A stretch of 39,309 nt of DNA, from the NCBI GenBank assembly GCA_016192425.1, contig JACPUE010000041.1:1-39309 (forward strand), in the 5' to 3' direction. Every line of letters starts with the position of its first letter. The first letter of the stretch is position 1. Below the pieces are notes generated by a model. The model saw only the letters and a program-made list of their open reading frames with translations, was not told the DNA's origin and searched no databases. This document shows positions 5,458 through 37,742 of the stretch, in pieces. This DNA is from Burkholderiales bacterium (lineage in GTDB: Bacteria; Pseudomonadota; Gammaproteobacteria; Burkholderiales; Burkholderiaceae_C). The position numbers and the translations under genes are program-made.

Positions 5458-7248
5458 ATGTACCAATACACCGATTTCGACAAGCAGTTCATCCGCCTGC
5501 GCGCACAGCAGTTCCGCGACCAGCTGGAGCGCTGGCAGCGTGGCGAACTCAGCGACGAGCAGCTGCTGCCGCTGCGCCTGCAAAACGGCTGGTACATCCA
5601 GCGCTATGCGCCCATGGCGCGCATCGCCGTGCCCTACGGCGAAATCAGCAGCGCGCAGTTGCGCATGCTGGCGCACATTGCGCGCGACTATGACCGCCCC
5701 ACGCCCGAGCTGCTGGCCCATGCGCAGGCCACGCAAGACCAGTTGCAGGCTGCACAGCCGGGCCTGACGCTGGCCGCGCCGCCGCTGCGCTATGGCTATG
5801 GCCACTTCACCACACGCACCAACGTGCAGTTCAACTGGATCCCCATCACCAAGGCCGCCGACGTGATGGACCTGCTGGCCAGCGTGTGCATGCACGGCAT
5901 CCAGACCAGCGGCAACGACATCCGCAACATCACCTGCGAGGCCTACGCGGGCATTGCAGAAGATGAGATCGTGGACACGCGCGCCTTTGCCGAAATTGCA
6001 CGCCAGTGGAGTTCGCTGCACCCCGAGTTCTCGTTCCTGCCGCGCAAGTTCAAAATCGCCTTCAACGGCGCCGCCGAAGACCGCGCCGCCACCGGCTGGT
6101 ACGACATCGGCCTGCAGGCCCGCCGCGCTGAAGACGGCAGCGTGGGATTCACCGTGAAGGTGGGGGGCGGCATGGGCCGCACGCCCGTCATCGGCAGCGT
6201 GGTGCGCGAGTTCCTGCCCTGGGACCAGCTGCTCAACTACATCGAAGCCATCGTGCGCGTGTACAACAGCTACGGCCGCCGCGACAACAAGTGGAAGGCA
6301 CGCATCAAGATCCTGGTCAAGAGCGAAGGCCAGTCCTTCATCGACGCGGTCGAAAAAGAGTACCGCGCCATTCTTGAGCAAGACGGTGCGCCGCACACCA
6401 TCACCCCCGAAGAACTGGCCCGCGTGCAGGCCAGCTTCGTGGTGCCCCCGCTCAAGCCGTCGGACCGCACGCACAGCGTGAACACTGCAGGCCAGCTGTA
6501 CCGGCGCTGGCTGCAGCAAAACGTGCGCGGCCACAAGCTGGCAGGCATGAAGGCAGTGACGCTGTCCTTCAAGCGCGTGGGCTTTGCCCCCGGCGACGCC
6601 GATGCCGACACGCTGGACGCCCTGGCGCAACTGGCCGATCAGTTCAGCGCGGGCGAAGCGCGCCTGACGCACGAGCAGAACCTGCTGCTGCCCTGGGTGT
6701 TTGAAAGCGACCTGCCCGCGCTGTACGAAGCCGCGCGCGCGCTGGGCCTGGCCCAGCCCAACATCGGCCTGCTGACCGACATGATCGCCTGCCCCGGCGG
6801 CGACTTCTGCTCGCTGGCCAACGCACGCTCGCTGCCGATTGCGGCCGCCATCACCGAGCGCTACCAGGACCTGGACGAACTGTTCGACCTGGGCCCCATC
6901 GACCTGCACATGAGCGGCTGCATCAACAGCTGCGGCCACCACCACAGCGGCCACATCGGCATCCTGGGCGTGGACAAGGACGGCATGGAGTGGTACCAGA
7001 TCACCCTGGGCGGTGCCGACGGCAGCGCGCTGTCCGGCCCGGCCCTGGGCGGCAAGGTGGTGGGCCCTGCGTTCTCGGCAGCCGAAGTGCCCGACGTGAT
7101 CGAGGCCCTGCTGGGCACCTACCGTGCGCTGCGCAAGAATGGCGAGTTCTTCATCGACACGCTGCGCCGTGTGGGGCACGACCCCTTCAAGGCGGCCGCC
7201 AACGGCGCCCGCCACCCCAAGGCCACCGAAGAAGCCCTGGCCGAGTGA
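5458..7248 (+). CDS. cysI: Sulfite (or nitrite) reductase, siroheme/4Fe-4S hemoprotein
   Basis: The 596-residue protein has the duplicated ferredoxin-like and siroheme-binding halves of the CysI/NirA family. The cluster and siroheme cysteines fit the family pattern: Cys445-x5-Cys451 and Cys488-x3-Cys492 (GCINSCGHHHSGHIG). It carries out six-electron reduction of sulfite to sulfide for cysteine synthesis in the cytoplasm. Its place between a TauE transporter and DUF934-cysH-cysDN favours sulfite over nitrite. The ATG at 5458 matches the Comamonadaceae-type N-terminus (MYQYTDFDKQF); the frame is open much further upstream but there it only shadows the transporter gene. There is no cysJ flavoprotein subunit in the window, so another electron donor such as ferredoxin is needed. 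Confidence 0.9.
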   Translation: MYQYTDFDKQFIRLRAQQFRDQLERWQRGELSDEQLLPLRLQNGWYIQRYAPMARIAVPYGEISSAQLRMLAHIARDYDRPTPELLAHAQATQDQLQAAQPGLTLAAPPLRYGYGHFTTRTNVQFNWIPITKAADVMDLLASVCMHGIQTSGNDIRNITCEAYAGIAEDEIVDTRAFAEIARQWSSLHPEFSFLPRKFKIAFNGAAEDRAATGWYDIGLQARRAEDGSVGFTVKVGGGMGRTPVIGSVVREFLPWDQLLNYIEAIVRVYNSYGRRDNKWKARIKILVKSEGQSFIDAVEKEYRAILEQDGAPHTITPEELARVQASFVVPPLKPSDRTHSVNTAGQLYRRWLQQNVRGHKLAGMKAVTLSFKRVGFAPGDADADTLDALAQLADQFSAGEARLTHEQNLLLPWVFESDLPALYEAARALGLAQPNIGLLTDMIACPGGDFCSLANARSLPIAAAITERYQDLDELFDLGPIDLHMSGCINSCGHHHSGHIGILGVDKDGMEWYQITLGGADGSALSGPALGGKVVGPAFSAAEVPDVIEALLGTYRALRKNGEFFIDTLRRVGHDPFKAAANGARHPKATEEALAE

Positions 7249-7274
7249 GCCCCCGAACCCACGAGACGATATCA

Positions 7275-7326
7275 CTATGAAAATAATAGCTGCCAACGCA
7301 GTACCTACGGACGCTGAAGGCCAAAA
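7275..7326 (+). repeat. Palindromic dispersed repeat, copy A (forms the start of the DUF934 gene)
   Basis: It begins CTAT, has seven variable bases, then ATAGCTGC, then a GC-rich arm ending GGCC-AAAA. The DUF934 start codon (7277-7279) is made from the CTAT plus the next G, so the whole element is translated in frame. It aligns without gaps to copies at 9351, 25731, 21092 (reverse) and 37368 (reverse). Confidence 0.8.
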
Positions 7327-7672
7327 AGTACTGCAAATTTCCAACGACGCCGACCTGGCCTCGCTGGCGCAGGAAGGCGCCCTTGCCGGGGCTGAGCGCA
7401 TCGAGCTGCACTTTCCCAAGTTCACCGACGGCCGCGCCTACACCCAGGCGCTGCTGCTGCGCCGCCGCTACCGCTTTGCAGGCGACATCCGCGCCACGGG
7501 CGACGTGCTGATCGACCAGCTGGTGCACATGCAGCGCAGCGGCTTCAGCAGCGCCGTGCTGGCCCAAGGGGTGGATCCCGCCGCCGCCGAGCGCCAGTTT
7601 GCGCGCTTTGCCGCCTTCTACCAGGGCGACGTGCTGGAGCCGCGCCCCCTGTTTGCCCGGGAGGCCGCATGA
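7277..7672 (+). CDS. DUF934 protein of the sulfite-reduction operon
   Basis: The 131-residue soluble protein belongs to the DUF934 family, which is commonly found between cysI and cysH in proteobacteria; its biochemical role is not established (an accessory role in sulfite reduction is usual speculation). Recognisable family segments are LHFPKFTDGRAYTQALLLRRRY (about 47-68) and DVLIDQLVHMQRSGF (about 78-92). The start at ATG 7277 follows cysI by 28 bases. Its first 17 residues (MKIIAANAVPTDAEGQK) are encoded by a dispersed palindromic repeat and resemble the CysN N-terminus for that reason only. The stop at 7670-7672 overlaps an out-of-frame ATG; cysH starts 61 bases later. Confidence 0.85.
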   Translation: MKIIAANAVPTDAEGQKVLQISNDADLASLAQEGALAGAERIELHFPKFTDGRAYTQALLLRRRYRFAGDIRATGDVLIDQLVHMQRSGFSSAVLAQGVDPAAAERQFARFAAFYQGDVLEPRPLFAREAA

Positions 7673-7733
7673 GCGCGCGCCGGGCCGTTCCCAAGCAAGC
7701 TCGCACCGCAGTGCGCAGCACGGAGGTAACCCG

Positions 7734-8366
7734 ATGAGCACCGTCACCACCGCCGAAATCGCCCGCGTCAACGCCGAACTGGGCCGCGACGCCGCTGGCC
7801 TCACAGCCTGGGCCCTGGGCCTGGGCCAGCGCTCCATCGTGACCACCAACTTCCGCCCGTTCGAGGCCGTGATCCTGCACCTGGTCACCCGCGTGCAGCC
7901 GGACGTCCCCGTGGTCTGGATGGACAACGGCTACAACACCGAGGCCACCTACCGCTATGCCGACGAAGTGACCCGGCTGCTGAACCTGAACCTGCGCATC
8001 TACCTGCCGCGCCGCTCGCGCGCGCACCGCGAGGCGCTGGAGGGGCCGGCGCCCGCCCTGGACGACCCGCGCCATGCCGCCTTCACCGAGGAGGTCAAGC
8101 TCGAACCCTTTGCCCGCGCGCTGCGCGAGACGGCGCCCCAGGTCTGGTTCACCGCACTGCGCGCCACCGACAGCGCCGTGCGCGCCCAGATGGAGCCCGT
8201 GAGCATCAACCCCGACGGCCTCATCAAGGTAGCGCCGCTGCTGCACTGGACGGCCAAGGACCTGCACGAATACTGCAAGGCGCACAGCCTGCCCAATAAT
8301 TTCGACTACGTGGACCCGACCAAGGGCGAAGACCACCGCGAATGCGGTCTTCATCTCGCCCACTGA
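7734..8366 (+). CDS. cysH: Phosphoadenylyl/adenylyl-sulfate reductase, short form without Fe-S cysteines
   Basis: The 210-residue protein has the PP-loop-derived PAPS/APS reductase fold: VTTNFRPFEAVILHLV, VVWMDNGYNTEATYRYAD, VKLEPFARALRE and QVWFTALRATDSAVRAQ, with the catalytic tail ECGLH holding the active-site Cys. It reduces PAPS or APS to sulfite with thioredoxin or glutaredoxin. It has only two cysteines and neither the CC pair nor the CxxC of 4Fe-4S APS reductases; where those have CCxxRKxEP this reads FTEEVKLEP. It is also shorter than E. coli CysH (244) by a trimmed loop before ECGLH. The ATG at 7734 has a strong GGAGGT seven bases upstream. Substrate preference (PAPS or APS) is left open because no APS kinase is encoded nearby. 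Confidence 0.87.
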   Translation: MSTVTTAEIARVNAELGRDAAGLTAWALGLGQRSIVTTNFRPFEAVILHLVTRVQPDVPVVWMDNGYNTEATYRYADEVTRLLNLNLRIYLPRRSRAHREALEGPAPALDDPRHAAFTEEVKLEPFARALRETAPQVWFTALRATDSAVRAQMEPVSINPDGLIKVAPLLHWTAKDLHEYCKAHSLPNNFDYVDPTKGEDHRECGLHLAH

Positions 8367-8384
8367 CCCCGACCGAATCCGACC

Positions 8385-9341
8385 ATGAACGCCCGCATAG
8401 ACAACTCCGCGCTGAGCCACCTCAGCAATCGCCACCTCGACGCGCTGGAGGAAGAAACCATCTTCATCCTGCGCGAAGTGGCCGCCGCCTTCGAGCGCCC
8501 CACCCTGCTGTTCTCGGGCGGCAAGGATTCGCTGGTCATGCTCCGTTGCGCCGAAAAAGCCTTTATGGATTCGAATGGCCCCTCCGGTAGCCGGGGCCGC
8601 ATCCCCTACCCGCTCTTGATGATCGACACCGGCCACAACTTCCCCGAGGTGACCGACTTCCGCGACTTCCGTGCCAAGGAACTGGGCGCCGAACTCATCG
8701 TGCGCAGCGTCGAAGATTCGATGGCGCGCGGCACCGTGCGCCTGGCGCATCCCGGCGAGAGCCGCAACGTGCACCAGTCGGTCACGCTGCTGGAGGCCAT
8801 TGACGAATTCCGCTTCGACGCGCTGATCGGCGGCGCCCGCCGCGACGAGGAAAAGGCGCGCGCCAAGGAACGCATCTTCAGCCACCGCGACAGCTTCGGC
8901 CAATGGCAGCCCAAGGCGCAGCGCCCCGAACTGTGGACGCTGTTCAACACCCGCCTGGCACCCGGCGAGCACTTCCGTGTATTCCCCATCAGCAACTGGA
9001 CCGAGCTGGACGTGTGGCAGTACATCGAGCGTGAGCAAATCGCCCTGCCCGCGCTGTACTACGCGCACCAGCGCCAGGTGGTCGAGCGCCGGGGCCTGCT
9101 GGTGCCCGTCACACCGCTCACGCCCGCCAAAGAGGGCGAAACCATCGAGACGCGCACCGTGCGCTTTCGCACCGTGGGCGACATCACCTGCACCTGCCCG
9201 GTGGAAAGCCCGGCCGCCACGGCGGGCGAGATCGTGATCGAGACCCTGGCCGCCGAAGTCAGCGAACGCGGTGCCACGCGCATGGACGACAAGACTTCCG
9301 ATGCTTCCATGGAGAAGCGCAAGAAAGACGGGTATTTCTGA
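8385..9341 (+). CDS. cysD: Sulfate adenylyltransferase subunit 2 (small subunit)
   Basis: The 318-residue ATP-sulfurylase catalytic subunit has the N-type ATP pyrophosphatase P-loop SGGKDS at 44-49, the LMIDTGHNFPEVTDFRD block, GGARRDEEKARAKER, and the C-terminal KKDGYF tail typical of CysD. With CysN it makes adenosine 5'-phosphosulfate from sulfate and ATP in the cytoplasm, driven by GTP hydrolysis. It starts 18 bases after cysH, and its TGA overlaps the cysN ATG by one base (TGATG), which indicates translational coupling and matched subunit synthesis. A short insert after the P-loop (SNGPSGSRGRI, about 63-73) is a little longer than in E. coli CysD (302 residues). Confidence 0.95.
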   Translation: MNARIDNSALSHLSNRHLDALEEETIFILREVAAAFERPTLLFSGGKDSLVMLRCAEKAFMDSNGPSGSRGRIPYPLLMIDTGHNFPEVTDFRDFRAKELGAELIVRSVEDSMARGTVRLAHPGESRNVHQSVTLLEAIDEFRFDALIGGARRDEEKARAKERIFSHRDSFGQWQPKAQRPELWTLFNTRLAPGEHFRVFPISNWTELDVWQYIEREQIALPALYYAHQRQVVERRGLLVPVTPLTPAKEGETIETRTVRFRTVGDITCTCPVESPAATAGEIVIETLAAEVSERGATRMDDKTSDASMEKRKKDGYF

Positions 9342-10708
9342 TGAGCAATACTATCAATTCAATAGCTGCCAGCGCAGTAAATACGGGCGCTGCAGGCCAA
9401 AATGACCATATTTCCGCGCTCAAGTTCATCACCTGCGGCAGCGTGGACGACGGCAAGAGCACGCTGATCGGCCGCCTGCTGGTGGACAGCCGCGCCGTGC
9501 TGCAGGACCACCTGGCCGGTGTGCAGCGCGGCGGCGAGGTGGACCTGGCCCTGCTGACCGACGGCCTGTCCGCCGAGCGCGAGCAAGGCATCACCATCGA
9601 CGTGGCCTACCGCTACTTCGCCACCGAAGAGCGCAAGTTCATCATCGGCGACGCGCCGGGCCACGAGCAGTACACGCGCAACATGGTCACCGCCGCCTCG
9701 CAGGCCGACGCCGCCGTGGTGCTGGTGGACGCCACCAAGCTCGACTGGAGCAACCCGCAACTCGCCCTGCTGCCGCAAACGCGCCGCCACAGCCTGCTGG
9801 TGCACCTGCTGCGCGTGCACTCGCTGGTGTTTGCCGTCAACAAGCTCGACGCCGTGCAAGACCCGCAAACCGCCTTTGCCCACATCAGCGCCGCACTGGC
9901 AAAGTTTGCGCAAGAGGCGGGCATCGCCGTGGCTGCCACCGTGCCCGTCTCGGCCCTCAAGGGCTGGAACGTGGTGGATCGCCACAGCGGCTGGTGCGGC
10001 TACGAAGGCCCGAGCCTGCTGCAGATCCTCGAACTGCTGCCCAACACCCCGGCCGACACCGGCCTGCCGCTGGCCTTCCCGGTGCAGTGGGTGGAAAAGT
10101 TCTCGTCCTCGTCCGACACCAGCCAGGGCCGCCGCGTGTTCTGGGGCCGTGTGGCCGCAGGCAGCGTGCAACCAGGTAGCGCGGTGCAGGTCTTCCCCAG
10201 CGGACAACTGGCCACCGTGGCCCAGGTGCTGGACCACGCACGCCGCCCCACCGCCGTGGGCGCGGGCGAGAGCGCGGGCATCATCCTCGACCGTGAGGTG
10301 GACGTCTCGCGCGGCGACTGGATCGTCGCCGCGCCCACGCAGGCCGCCGTGGCCGAAGACGACTTTGACGCCCCCGCCGCCGTACCCGCCTGGCCCGGCC
10401 AGCGCGAGCTCAACGCCACCGTCGCCTGGATGGACAACGAGCCCCTGGTCGCAGGCCGCGTGTACTGGGCACTGCACGGCCACCGCTGGGTCAAGGCCAA
10501 GGTGCGCCGCGTGGTGCACCGGCTGGACATCAACACCCTGGCCGAGGAAGACGCCCAGCAGCTCGACCCCAACGCCATCGGCCATGTGGAGCTGCTGCTG
10601 CAGGAACCCCTGCCCGCCGCCCCCTTCAGCCAGGCGCGCGTGCTGGGCTCGCTCATCCTGGTGGACACCGCCAGCAACGCCACTGCGGGCGCCGTACTGG
10701 TGAACTGA
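9341..10708 (+). CDS. cysN: Sulfate adenylyltransferase subunit 1 (GTPase)
   Basis: The 455-residue EF-Tu-like GTPase regulates CysD. Visible motifs are the P-loop GSVDDGKS (33-40), DAPGH (104-108) and NKLD (167-170), followed by two beta-barrel domains. The length matches a CysN without a fused C-terminal APS kinase (CysNC is about 620 or more). The start is the TGATG overlap with cysD. Residues about 4-20 (TINSIAASAVNTGAAGQ) come from palindromic repeat copy B; the conserved part starts near residue 24 (ISALKFITCGSVDDGKS), so the repeat forms a dispensable-looking extension. A hairpin at 10748-10769 lies after the stop, without a T run. Confidence 0.94.
   Translation: MSNTINSIAASAVNTGAAGQNDHISALKFITCGSVDDGKSTLIGRLLVDSRAVLQDHLAGVQRGGEVDLALLTDGLSAEREQGITIDVAYRYFATEERKFIIGDAPGHEQYTRNMVTAASQADAAVVLVDATKLDWSNPQLALLPQTRRHSLLVHLLRVHSLVFAVNKLDAVQDPQTAFAHISAALAKFAQEAGIAVAATVPVSALKGWNVVDRHSGWCGYEGPSLLQILELLPNTPADTGLPLAFPVQWVEKFSSSSDTSQGRRVFWGRVAAGSVQPGSAVQVFPSGQLATVAQVLDHARRPTAVGAGESAGIILDREVDVSRGDWIVAAPTQAAVAEDDFDAPAAVPAWPGQRELNATVAWMDNEPLVAGRVYWALHGHRWVKAKVRRVVHRLDINTLAEEDAQQLDPNAIGHVELLLQEPLPAAPFSQARVLGSLILVDTASNATAGAVLVN
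9351..9402 (+). repeat. Palindromic dispersed repeat, copy B (inside the cysN 5' end)
   Basis: Same geometry as copy A: CTAT, seven bases, ATAGCTGC, then an arm ending in GCAGGCC-AAAA. It lies in the same frame relative to translation as copy A, starting at codon 4-5 of cysN, and is much less GC-rich than the codons that follow. Confidence 0.8.
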
Positions 10709-20998: not shown

Positions 20999-21039
20999 CG
21001 CGGACGGTGAAAACGCCATGAAAACTAAGAAATTTAAGC

Positions 21040-21092
21040 AAAACCAGCTCTGGCGCTTGCTGGACAAGCGCCAGCAGCTATCAAATCAATAG
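21040..21092 (-). repeat. Palindromic dispersed repeat, copy D (intergenic)
   Basis: Read on the minus strand it begins CTAT, seven bases, ATAGCTGC, then a perfect ten-base inverted repeat (21050-21059 with 21065-21074) around a five-base loop. It lies between the convergent thiE and fimV-like genes, so a role as a bidirectional transcript end is possible. Confidence 0.8.
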
Positions 21093-21100
21093 CAAACAAA

Positions 21101-21116
21101 CCCTGGATTATCAGGG
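21101..21116 (-). terminator. Terminator of the fimV-like gene
   Basis: On the minus strand a hairpin CCCTG/CAGGG with a six-base loop overlaps the stop codon and is followed by TTTGTTTG. The stem is short, so the call is moderate. Confidence 0.45.
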
Positions 21117-25702: not shown

Positions 25703-25730
25703 CGCACGCTGCGGCGACGCGCCGCACTTG

Positions 25731-25783
25731 CTATATTTTTTATAGCTGCTAACGCTTGTATTACGGGCGCTGCAGCCCATTTT
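25731..25783 (+). repeat. Palindromic dispersed repeat, copy C (intergenic)
   Basis: CTAT, seven bases (six of them T), ATAGCTGC, an arm with GGGCGCTGCAGCCC (itself nearly palindromic), then CATTTT. It lies 28 bases after the crotonase stop in the 218-base gap before the Crp/Fnr-type gene; the rest of that gap (25784-25920) shows no other clear feature. Confidence 0.8.
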
Positions 25784-25920
25784 CTTTCAAAACCCAGCCT
25801 CGCCATGCACCACGGCGGGCGCCGCTGCGCCTGCGCAGACACGCAGGTGACAACCCCCATGCGCAACGCCGGTCCCGCACGCGACAATGAAAGCGTTTCC
25901 AGTCACCCAAAAGACAGACC

Positions 25921-36373: not shown

Positions 36374-37742
36374 GAACTTGTCCGACACCTCGCTCATCGC
36401 GCGCCACGCTGCAACCGTGCTCGCCGGCCAATTGGCGGTCATGGCTTTTGGCGTGACCGACACCATCGTTGCCGGCCGCCATGCGCAGGAATCGCTGGCC
36501 GCATTGGCGATCAGCTCGGCCCTGTACATCAGCGTGTACGTCGCCCTGCTCGGCATGCTCAGCGCACTGCTGCCCATCTGGGCTGAGCTGCGCGGTGCAC
36601 GCAACCCACAGGCCATCGGCGGCTCTCTGCGCCAGTCGCTGTACCTCTGCGCCCTGGCCTGCCTGCCAGGCATGGCCCTGCTGCTGCACCCTGGCCCGGT
36701 GCTGGACTGGACCAAAGTGCCGATGGCACTGCGCCCCAGCGTGGAGCATTACCTGGCCGTGCTGGCGCTGGCTTTGCCGCCGGCACTGCTGTTCCGTCTC
36801 TTCAGCACCCTGAACCAGGCGCTGGGCCATCCCCGCATGGTCACCTGGCTGCAGATGGCGTCGCTGCTGGTGAAGATTCCGCTGTCCATCTGGTGGACGT
36901 TTGGCGGCGCAGGCGTGCCAGCGCTGGGGGTGGTGGGCTGCGGCTGGGCGACCCTGGCGGTCAACTGCGGCATGTTGGCGCTGGCGCTGTGGCTGCTGCG
37001 CACGCAAGACATCTACACCCCGCTGCAGCTCTGGAAACGCATGGAGCCGCCCGACGGCAAACAGCTTGCAGGCTTCGCACGGCTGGGCATCCCATCGGCT
37101 CTGGCCGTCACCGTGGAGGTGACCTCCTTCACCCTGATGGCCTTGTTCATCGCGCGCCAAGGCACGCTGGCATCGGCCGCACACCAGATTGCCGCCAACA
37201 TGGCCGCCGTGCTGTACATGGTGCCGCTGTCGCTGGCCATTGCCACCAGCGCCCGCGTAAGCTACTGGCGCGGCGCAGGCCAGCCAGTGCATGCACAGCA
37301 AGCGGTATTGATAGGTTTCAGGCTTCTAGGGATTATGTGTATTGCGCTAGCAGCTATAGTTTTTATAGCAAACCGCCACATTGCATCGGTGTATTCAAAC
37401 GACCCCCAGGTTGTACTGACCGCAGCAGGCTTGCTGGGCTGGGTGGCGCTGTACCACCTGGCCGATGCGGTGCAGGCCCTGAGCATCTTCTTGCTGCGCT
37501 GCTACCGCATCACGCTGGCGCCCCTGGTGGTGTATGGCGTGCTGCTGTGGGGCGTGGGCCTGGGCGGCGGCTACCGGTGGGCCTACCTTGGCCTCGGGCC
37601 GCTGGAGCCGCTGGCTTCCCCCATGCCCTTTTGGGCGGCCAGCGCGGCAGCGCTGATGCTCACGGCCACGGTGTTTGTGGCCATGCTGTGCCGCGCCGTG
37701 CTCAAGGAGTGCGCAAGCGGGTCGCAGGAATGTGCACGCTGA
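36357..37742 (+). CDS. MATE-family multidrug/metabolite transporter
   Basis: The 461-residue protein has twelve hydrophobic segments in two MatE halves: FGVTDTIVAGRHAQESLAALAISSALY (about 28-54) and LMALFIARQGTLASAAHQIAANMAAVLYMVPLSLAIATSARVSYWRGAG (about 260-308) are the family's typical first-helix and eighth-helix regions. It is likely a Na+- or H+-coupled exporter in the inner membrane. ATG 36357 overlaps the preceding gene by 17 bases. Codons about 321-337 (37317-37368) are encoded by palindromic repeat copy E and have AT-rich codons unlike the rest. The 3' end overlaps phoR on the other strand by 41 bases. Confidence 0.85.
   Translation: MRRTTKNLSDTSLIARHAATVLAGQLAVMAFGVTDTIVAGRHAQESLAALAISSALYISVYVALLGMLSALLPIWAELRGARNPQAIGGSLRQSLYLCALACLPGMALLLHPGPVLDWTKVPMALRPSVEHYLAVLALALPPALLFRLFSTLNQALGHPRMVTWLQMASLLVKIPLSIWWTFGGAGVPALGVVGCGWATLAVNCGMLALALWLLRTQDIYTPLQLWKRMEPPDGKQLAGFARLGIPSALAVTVEVTSFTLMALFIARQGTLASAAHQIAANMAAVLYMVPLSLAIATSARVSYWRGAGQPVHAQQAVLIGFRLLGIMCIALAAIVFIANRHIASVYSNDPQVVLTAAGLLGWVALYHLADAVQALSIFLLRCYRITLAPLVVYGVLLWGVGLGGGYRWAYLGLGPLEPLASPMPFWAASAAALMLTATVFVAMLCRAVLKECASGSQECAR
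37317..37368 (-). repeat. Palindromic dispersed repeat, copy E (inside the MATE gene)
   Basis: Read on the minus strand: CTAT, seven bases, ATAGCTGC, then TAGCGC and the arm to CCTGAAA, matching copies A-D without gaps. On the MATE strand it is translated as a hydrophobic stretch (about FRLLGIMCIALAAIVFIA). The codons include ATA, CTA, AGG, GGG and GTT, which are rare in the flanking gene. Confidence 0.78.

Follow-up and report, generated by a model that had tools for sequence, protein, structure and literature searches.

The DUF934 gene and cysN, two genes of one cys operon in a Burkholderiales bacterium, each carry at their start a copy of a palindromic repeat of about 55 nucleotides (nt), which is present in about 200 copies in the same genome. 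The window, i.e. the whole stretch of DNA analysed, comprises positions 1 to 39,309 of contig JACPUE010000041.1 (assembly GCA_016192425.1). The two N-termini are probably old captures of this genome-wide repeat, which would be tolerated as spacers and whose DNA would have stayed repeat-like while being inherited vertically.

Repeat copies at the starts of the DUF934 gene and cysN

The features concerned are given below. Scores in bits are those of the profile hidden Markov model (HMM) described in the following section.

7274–7328, forward strand: repeat copy A, 29.6 bits, holding the ATG at 7277 and codons 1–17 of the DUF934 gene
about 7274–7290 and about 7293–7317, forward strand: regions of hairpin 1 and hairpin 2 in copy A, by register with the consensus
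7277–7672, forward strand: DUF934 gene of the cys operon (PF06073, 1.2e-34, domain match from residue 20)
9350–9404, forward strand: repeat copy B, 36.8 bits, forming cysN codons 4–21 in the same frame relative to the core as in copy A
9341–10708, forward strand: cysN, sulfate adenylyltransferase large subunit (TIGR02034 from residue 27); its start ATG overlaps the cysD stop codon

A preliminary description of this DNA had claimed that copy A supplies the start codon and the first 17 codons of the DUF934 gene, that copy B lies within the N-terminus of cysN, that both are read in one frame, and that conserved family sequence begins only past the repeat. All of this was borne out by the coordinates. 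Copies A (7274–7326) and B (9350–9402) are 83% identical in an ungapped alignment of 53 nt. The Pfam match of the DUF934 protein begins directly beyond the 17 repeat codons, and in cysN the repeat ends at about residue 21, ahead of the TIGR02034 match. In the DUF934 frame the ATG at 7277, which lies within the repeat, is the sole ATG, GTG or TTG from 30 codons before to 15 codons after the repeat end, and earlier in-frame start codons fall within cysI. In the cysN frame the ATG at 9341 is the first start past the upstream stop, and no other occurs from there to the GTG of the SVDDGKS motif. With these start positions both repeats would be translated if the proteins carry their conserved domains, and in this sense the translation of both follows from the sequence.

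The repeat family in the genome

The exact core ATAGCTGCNNNCGC has 193 matches in the 3.67-Mb genome, versus 1 for a control pattern read backwards. The repeat unit has a GC content of 46% and a consensus of about GCTATAAATTTGATAGCTGCTAGCGCTTGATGGACAAGCGCTAGAGGCCAATTTT, with hairpin 1 formed by GCTAT-7-ATAGC and hairpin 2 around GCGC-11-GCGC. Around most of the first 100 core places, together with the window and other search matches, 105 distinct copies were gathered, all of which contain ATAGCTGC by construction. The HMM was trained on 65 copies from intergenic regions of this genome, a set that contains neither A nor B. It gave no match above 6.4 bits on 623 kb of reversed sequence, and found five copies, A to E, in the window. 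Thus both members of the pair reported earlier are real, but with 193 exact cores genome-wide there is no special pairing of the operon's ends. The remaining copies of the window are:

25730–25784, forward strand: repeat copy C, 46.0 bits, of the same family as A and B; intergenic; an enoyl-CoA hydratase gene ends 27 nt before it
21039–21093, reverse strand: repeat copy D, 43.9 bits; intergenic; the minus-strand gene at 21111 has its 3' end 17 nt away; the copy folds better than shuffled sequences (z -3.27)
37315–37369, reverse strand: repeat copy E, 28.5 bits; inside a MatE-family gene (PF01554), antisense, in the frame of 9/11 antisense in-gene copies that score above 9 bits

Genes were called with a simple codon-usage caller, by which copy B was scored as intergenic only because the cysN start was placed too late. 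The 105 copies fall into 66 intergenic, 20 wholly inside genes, 15 over a 3' end, 2 over a 5' end and 2 touching two genes. The copies avoid genes (20/105 inside versus a coding share of 0.863, p 3e-54), the coding share being that of sampled stretches centred on copies and partly overlapping. Of 42 intergenic copies (B included) that lie 15 nt or less from a gene end, 33 adjoin a 3' end. The ATAG of the repeat was also seen to give the stop codon and last residues to five called genes (L006, L022, L025, L056, L109). No match was obtained when a 20-residue repeat peptide was compared with PDB sequences, and no description of this repeat appeared among the papers listed by searches of the open-licence literature that were aimed at it.

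Copies read inside genes

The resemblance to the in-frame exaptation of palindromic elements in Rickettsia, which had been suggested before, held in so far as the 20 copies wholly inside called genes show a regular use of frames. All but one of them score above 9 bits, the exception being L082 (3.0 bits, antisense frame 0). The sense copies above 9 bits are all in frame 0 (8/8), with the core read as ATA GCT and the peptide as IAASA..GAGGQ, and 9/11 antisense copies above 9 bits are in frame 1, with the peptide QAQAAIK. The frames of A and B match each other because both use this genome-wide sense frame. Of the 66 intergenic copies, 39 are open in sense frame 0 and 27 in sense frame 1; on the antisense strand, 39 are open in frame 1, 37 in frame 2 and 1 in frame 0. 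The preference of the in-gene copies for certain frames exceeds this openness, but only modestly (p 0.015 and 0.036). The favoured frames encode peptides with many Ala, Gly and Gln residues. The hosts include topoisomerase III (before the SWIB domain), a carboxylase (before the biotinyl domain), methionyl-tRNA synthetase (before the tRNA-binding domain), the linker of a 2-oxoacid dehydrogenase acyltransferase, DNA polymerase III gamma/tau, ThiL and an SrkA-like kinase.

The cys N-termini in relatives

The other genes of the operon in the window are:

5458–7248, forward strand: cysI-like sulfite/nitrite reductase gene, ending 28 nt before the DUF934 ATG
7734–8366, forward strand: cysH-like PAPS/APS reductase gene
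8385–9341, forward strand: cysD, which served as query for orthologous loci

Two sets of loci were compared. The first consisted of cysD loci from the genome studied here and from 29 relatives (L115–L144), cysD having a match in 47/60 genomes including its own; the second of the best 80 of 190 named DUF934 loci, for which one search word lay within the repeat. Some genomes are in both sets, and L126/L161 and L139/L156 share their start sequence. The HMM gave at least 9 bits at 38/109 DUF934 and 41/101 cysN loci, and 35 of the 38 and 32 of the 41 share a common register. In 33/38 repeat-bearing DUF934 loci an ATG occupies the CTATx position of the repeat. These 38 loci include Acidovorax, Paracidovorax, Comamonas, Ottowia, Curvibacter, Rhodoferax and Extensimonas, and none from Variovorax or Ramlibacter; the repeat N-terminus of cysN is likewise spread across genera, among the matches listed. 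As judged from this recurrence of the same N-termini in several genera, the cys captures are old. It had been foreseen that the element might be an old N-terminus common to all relatives: it is old and shared by several genera, but present in many relatives and not in all. In G034 the DUF934 copy stands at a different offset, suggesting that it arose separately.

A genome was classed as repeat-rich if it had 50 or more exact cores (our own cut-off); G009 was moved to this class after a covariance search and the Fisher tests were redone. The DUF934 gene carries the repeat in 18/21 rich and 2/7 poor genomes and cysN in 16/20 rich and 1/8 poor genomes (p 0.0095 and 0.0019, respectively, uncorrected for phylogeny). 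Hence, in the comparison of 5' ends that had been proposed, many relatives bear the element, but the repeat-poor genomes are mostly without it.

In 24 genomes of other families the pattern counts were at control level, and the sole sightings of the repeat outside the family were in a small number of plasmid and integron records. Within the family it is nearly absent from G002 and G004, in each of which 150 candidates were scored, 2 and 6, respectively, matching the covariance model. In a tree of 26 genomes based on four proteins these two genomes lie inside a repeat-rich genus, next to G009 (support 0.79) and G001 (0.63). Since the pair nests within this genus, the repeat family was probably lost in their lineage. 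A loss in G009, which has 7 exact cores, was also considered and rejected, because at least 134 sequences there match the covariance model. Four copies sampled in G009 (L393, L400, L407, L413) contained ATAGCTAC twice, GTGC once and the common core once, differences which may reflect a shift of the core or plain erosion. A replichore strand bias of the repeat in G029 was rejected as an artefact of which matches were listed.

Conservation of the repeat at the DNA level

Codon use was compared in the repeat-rich genomes (50 or more exact cores), classed by exact-pattern counts and without selection on HMM score. In the first 17 codons of the DUF934 gene (20 rich genomes) Ile is encoded by ATA in 37/43 cases versus 1/57 downstream, and in the N-terminus of cysN (19 rich genomes) in 20/32 versus 2/49. 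ATA makes up 2.7% of the Ile codons in the genome studied here. The GC content of third codon positions is 0.46 in the repeat part and 0.87 downstream in both genes. By these measures the repeat DNA at the cys N-termini is conserved beyond what it encodes.

Such conservation would also be expected if the copies were kept for a function of the DNA or RNA at the starts, such as a protein-binding site or translation control, the peptide being a by-product. The core ATA GCT is near-invariant among orthologues selected by HMM score and register (33/35 and 35/35 in the DUF934 gene, 32/32 and 31/32 in cysN), the rare ATA is retained in it, and the start codon of the DUF934 gene straddles the stem and loop of hairpin 1. 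However, the DUF934 and cysN start regions fold no better than shuffled sequences (z -0.85 and +0.16), a scan of the window with Rfam at gathering scores gave no match, decayed DUF934 copies are tolerated in the repeat-rich genomes G014 and G001, and recognisable copies persist in thiL and srkA, away from any start codon. We therefore consider a function of this kind rather improbable.

The preliminary description had gone further, in proposing that the element was exapted separately in this lineage and that mRNA structure around the two starts links translation of the operon's two ends. The close identity of A and B and their shared frame are what such an origin would produce, yet several genera have these N-termini in common, and every sense in-gene copy that scores above 9 bits uses this frame. 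The structural part is not supported, given the folding values above and the variable loop orientation in cysN orthologues. The cysN start overlaps the cysD stop, so coupling to cysD would be a simpler link. This proposal is very unlikely to be correct.

Orientation of the hairpin loops

The loops of both hairpins occur in both orientations. In hairpin 1 the 7-nt loop is the exact reverse complement of the loop of another copy in 41/96 copies, versus 9.1 on average (maximum 15 in 100 trials) for column-shuffled loops, and plain reversal or plain complement gives 0 matches. In hairpin 2, 27/84 loops match a reverse complement within one mismatch, versus 2.6 when shuffled (maximum 7). In cysN orthologues the loop orientation swaps NS for EL, so that NSIA and ELIA are found in L115 and L133. 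Minute hairpin inversions occur in chloroplast DNA.

The two loop orientations, the core variants of G009 and the depletion in G002 and G004 are hints of a trans-acting system that rewrites the copies, including those in thiL, metG, cysN and the genes for topoisomerase III and DNA polymerase III gamma/tau, by hairpin-templated conversion. We regard such a system as possible though unlikely. If it existed, segments of many unrelated proteins would evolve in concert, set by a DNA repeat and not by selection on the proteins.

Other coding sites

The thiL, metG, srkA and carboxylase sites behave in the same way as the cys sites, shorter versions being found in genomes without the copy. In ThiL the loop of the repeat bearers is 8 residues longer than in G030, G032 and G042 and 7 residues longer, at that place, than in the solved ThiL structure 3mcq; in G002 and G004 the insert length is kept and the DNA match is gone. 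In SrkA the repeat bearers have 10 residues more than the E. coli protein (1zyl) and 6–10 more than G026, G030, G031, G032, G034 and G042. The carboxylase copy is present in 6/9 aligned relatives and missing in G006, G017 and G034; 25 genomes were searched, and those outside the nine aligned gave paralogues. The HMM score correlates with the exact-core count for thiL (Spearman rho 0.78, 25 genomes) and metG (rho 0.60, 26 genomes), both values resting on exact-pattern counts in which G009 was not reassigned.

Proposed origin of the cys N-termini

The observations would fit the following course of events. An element of about 55 nt with two hairpins, an old selfish or structural repeat, would have spread to about 200 places, mostly against gene ends. 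Where the surroundings of the core ATAGCT are free of stops, copies could have become coding, and the soft Ala/Gly/Gln peptide that they encode would be tolerated in linkers, loops and N-termini. In the DUF934 gene the CTATG of the repeat would have become the start codon, while in cysN the element would have settled close behind the native start, whose ATG overlaps the stop codon of cysD. Both would then have been inherited vertically across much of the family, the DNA staying repeat-like (rare ATA and GCT codons, both loop orientations) as the residues drifted. The peptide would act as a neutral spacer, and the sequence may be kept by renewal at the DNA level, i.e. conversion or hairpin-templated copying by some factor.

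Several observations weigh against capture of the repeat and its maintenance as DNA. The net gain in length is about 10 residues in SrkA, 8 in ThiL, 13 in CysN (relative to G004) and none in the DUF934 protein, in each case less than 18 codons, so these are not clean insertions and native residues must have been replaced or lost. Copies are decayed or missing in genomes that are rich in the repeat: the DUF934 copy in G001 (0 bits) and G014 (2.7 bits), that of metG in G029 and G035, and that of srkA in G005, G013 and G028. In eight repeat-poor genomes of the family, the N-terminal Ile is encoded by ATA in 2/5 (DUF934) and 5/5 (cysN) cases, which speaks against a tight link to the abundance of the repeat. 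Given the same residue, the codons are identical scarcely more often in the repeat than downstream (0.72 versus 0.68 and 0.74 versus 0.72), and the DNA-level signal therefore rests on few core codons. Helix covariation is weak (52 of the 65 intergenic copies aligned), and no transposase could be tied to the repeat by the PF01797 search and the examination of RAYT stretches described below. Lastly, the EPSP synthase copy (L041:1472-1526, 26.7 bits) overlies a conserved ASYF motif where the native protein is already similar, so that some in-gene copies may not be insertions, and E. coli SrkA already has LIAA at the place where the srkA copy begins.

The last two cases are what ordinary protein homology, or convergence of Ala-rich N-termini, would produce where no DNA repeat is involved, and so is the DUF934 gene of G014, in which the MKIIA pattern of the peptide is kept and the DNA has drifted. 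This explanation deserves next to no credence at the cys sites, since 83% identity over 53 nt of DNA between unrelated genes, recognition by an HMM trained on intergenic copies alone with controls never above 6.4 bits, and a third-position bias opposite to that downstream all speak against it. Capture of the repeat remains the reading that we prefer.

Comparison with known repeats

REP (repetitive extragenic palindromic) elements are associated with RAYT (REP-associated tyrosine) transposases. A search of this genome for the corresponding domain, Y1_Tnp (PF01797), gave no match, and the domain is present in 22/22 other genomes searched, including some with few or no repeat copies. Repeat matches above 8 bits lie inside the RAYT stretches of 6/18 genomes, with no clear enrichment. 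RAYT is thus not supported as the mobiliser of the repeat, being absent here, present in repeat-poor genomes and not clearly surrounded by copies. REP elements are described, in passages of PMC12306157, as high-copy small palindromes of 14–40 nt, mostly extragenic and near gene ends. The present repeat is likewise high-copy and mostly extragenic near gene ends (66/105 intergenic; 33 of the 42 ends within 15 nt being 3'), but it is longer and its genome lacks PF01797 matches. Neither the GTAG nor the CGTC tag of REP/RAYT systems, named in the title of PMC3733652, was seen by eye at either end of the 55-nt consensus. None of six genus names was found in the text of that paper.

A close parallel, by description, is with the Rickettsia palindromic elements (RPE). 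According to parts of a review (PMC10969869), these are palindromic repeats of about 150 bp found in frame within unrelated genes as well as outside genes; the frequency of in-frame repeats in Rickettsia is said there to be unusual, and similar protein evolution in other prokaryotes to be conceivable. Both families are short palindromic repeats with in-frame copies in many unrelated genes and copies outside genes. Unlike RPE, the present repeat is about 55 nt long, belongs to another bacterial group, lies mostly near gene 3' ends, and has old shared sites and both loop orientations.

Two further families were compared by description. The beta-proteobacterial repeat element, BRE (Hot et al. 2011; PMC3110155, in part), is about 90 bp long with 69% GC in Bordetella, often tandem and in at most 29 copies; it is reported as dispersed in Comamonadaceae, with some copies within coding sequences. 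The present repeat shares the dispersal and the coding copies, and differs in its length of about 55 nt, its 46% GC, its 193 exact cores and its control-level counts in the 24 genomes of other families. The QMITEs of Coxiella provide proteins with C-termini, stop codons or in-frame segments, QMITE1 having a length of 300–400 bp (PMC5896051, in part). They resemble the present repeat as small repeats that contribute parts of proteins, but the latter is only about 55 nt long and occurs in another bacterial group. As to the terminal inverted repeats and target-site duplications of miniature inverted-repeat transposable elements, the two hairpins lie, by register, in the interior of the repeat; the comparison of relatives gave no clean empty site, the length gains being below the size of the element.

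Wider occurrence

Rickettsia is the best-known case of in-frame palindromic repeats. The family described here is a different one, in Comamonadaceae-type bacteria, and its shared sites would be old enough for comparison across genera. This allows tests of how noncoding repeats turn into protein, of whether the choice of frame follows the tolerated peptide, and of whether repeat DNA overrides codon usage within conserved genes. The repeat also bears on annotation, since the domain DUF1010 (PF06231) seems to include its antisense translation.

The first 25 or so positions of DUF1010 appear to correspond to this translation. Of the 16 matches listed (of 23) to DUF1010 in the genome studied, 12 coincide with repeat copies, and full-length DUF1010 genes cluster in relatives. 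A DUF1010 gene is also found between dfrA12 and aadA2, beside intI1, on the E. coli plasmid pP11b (L357:1052-1342), which hints that this cassette derives from the present bacterial family. On a plasmid of Diaphorobacter sp. HDW4A (L358) a copy at 1501–1555 shares 22 nt with the annotated 3' end of cobN, and its beginning lies at a distance of 2 nt from where a TonB-dependent receptor gene starts; the repeat is therefore carried on plasmids of the family as well.

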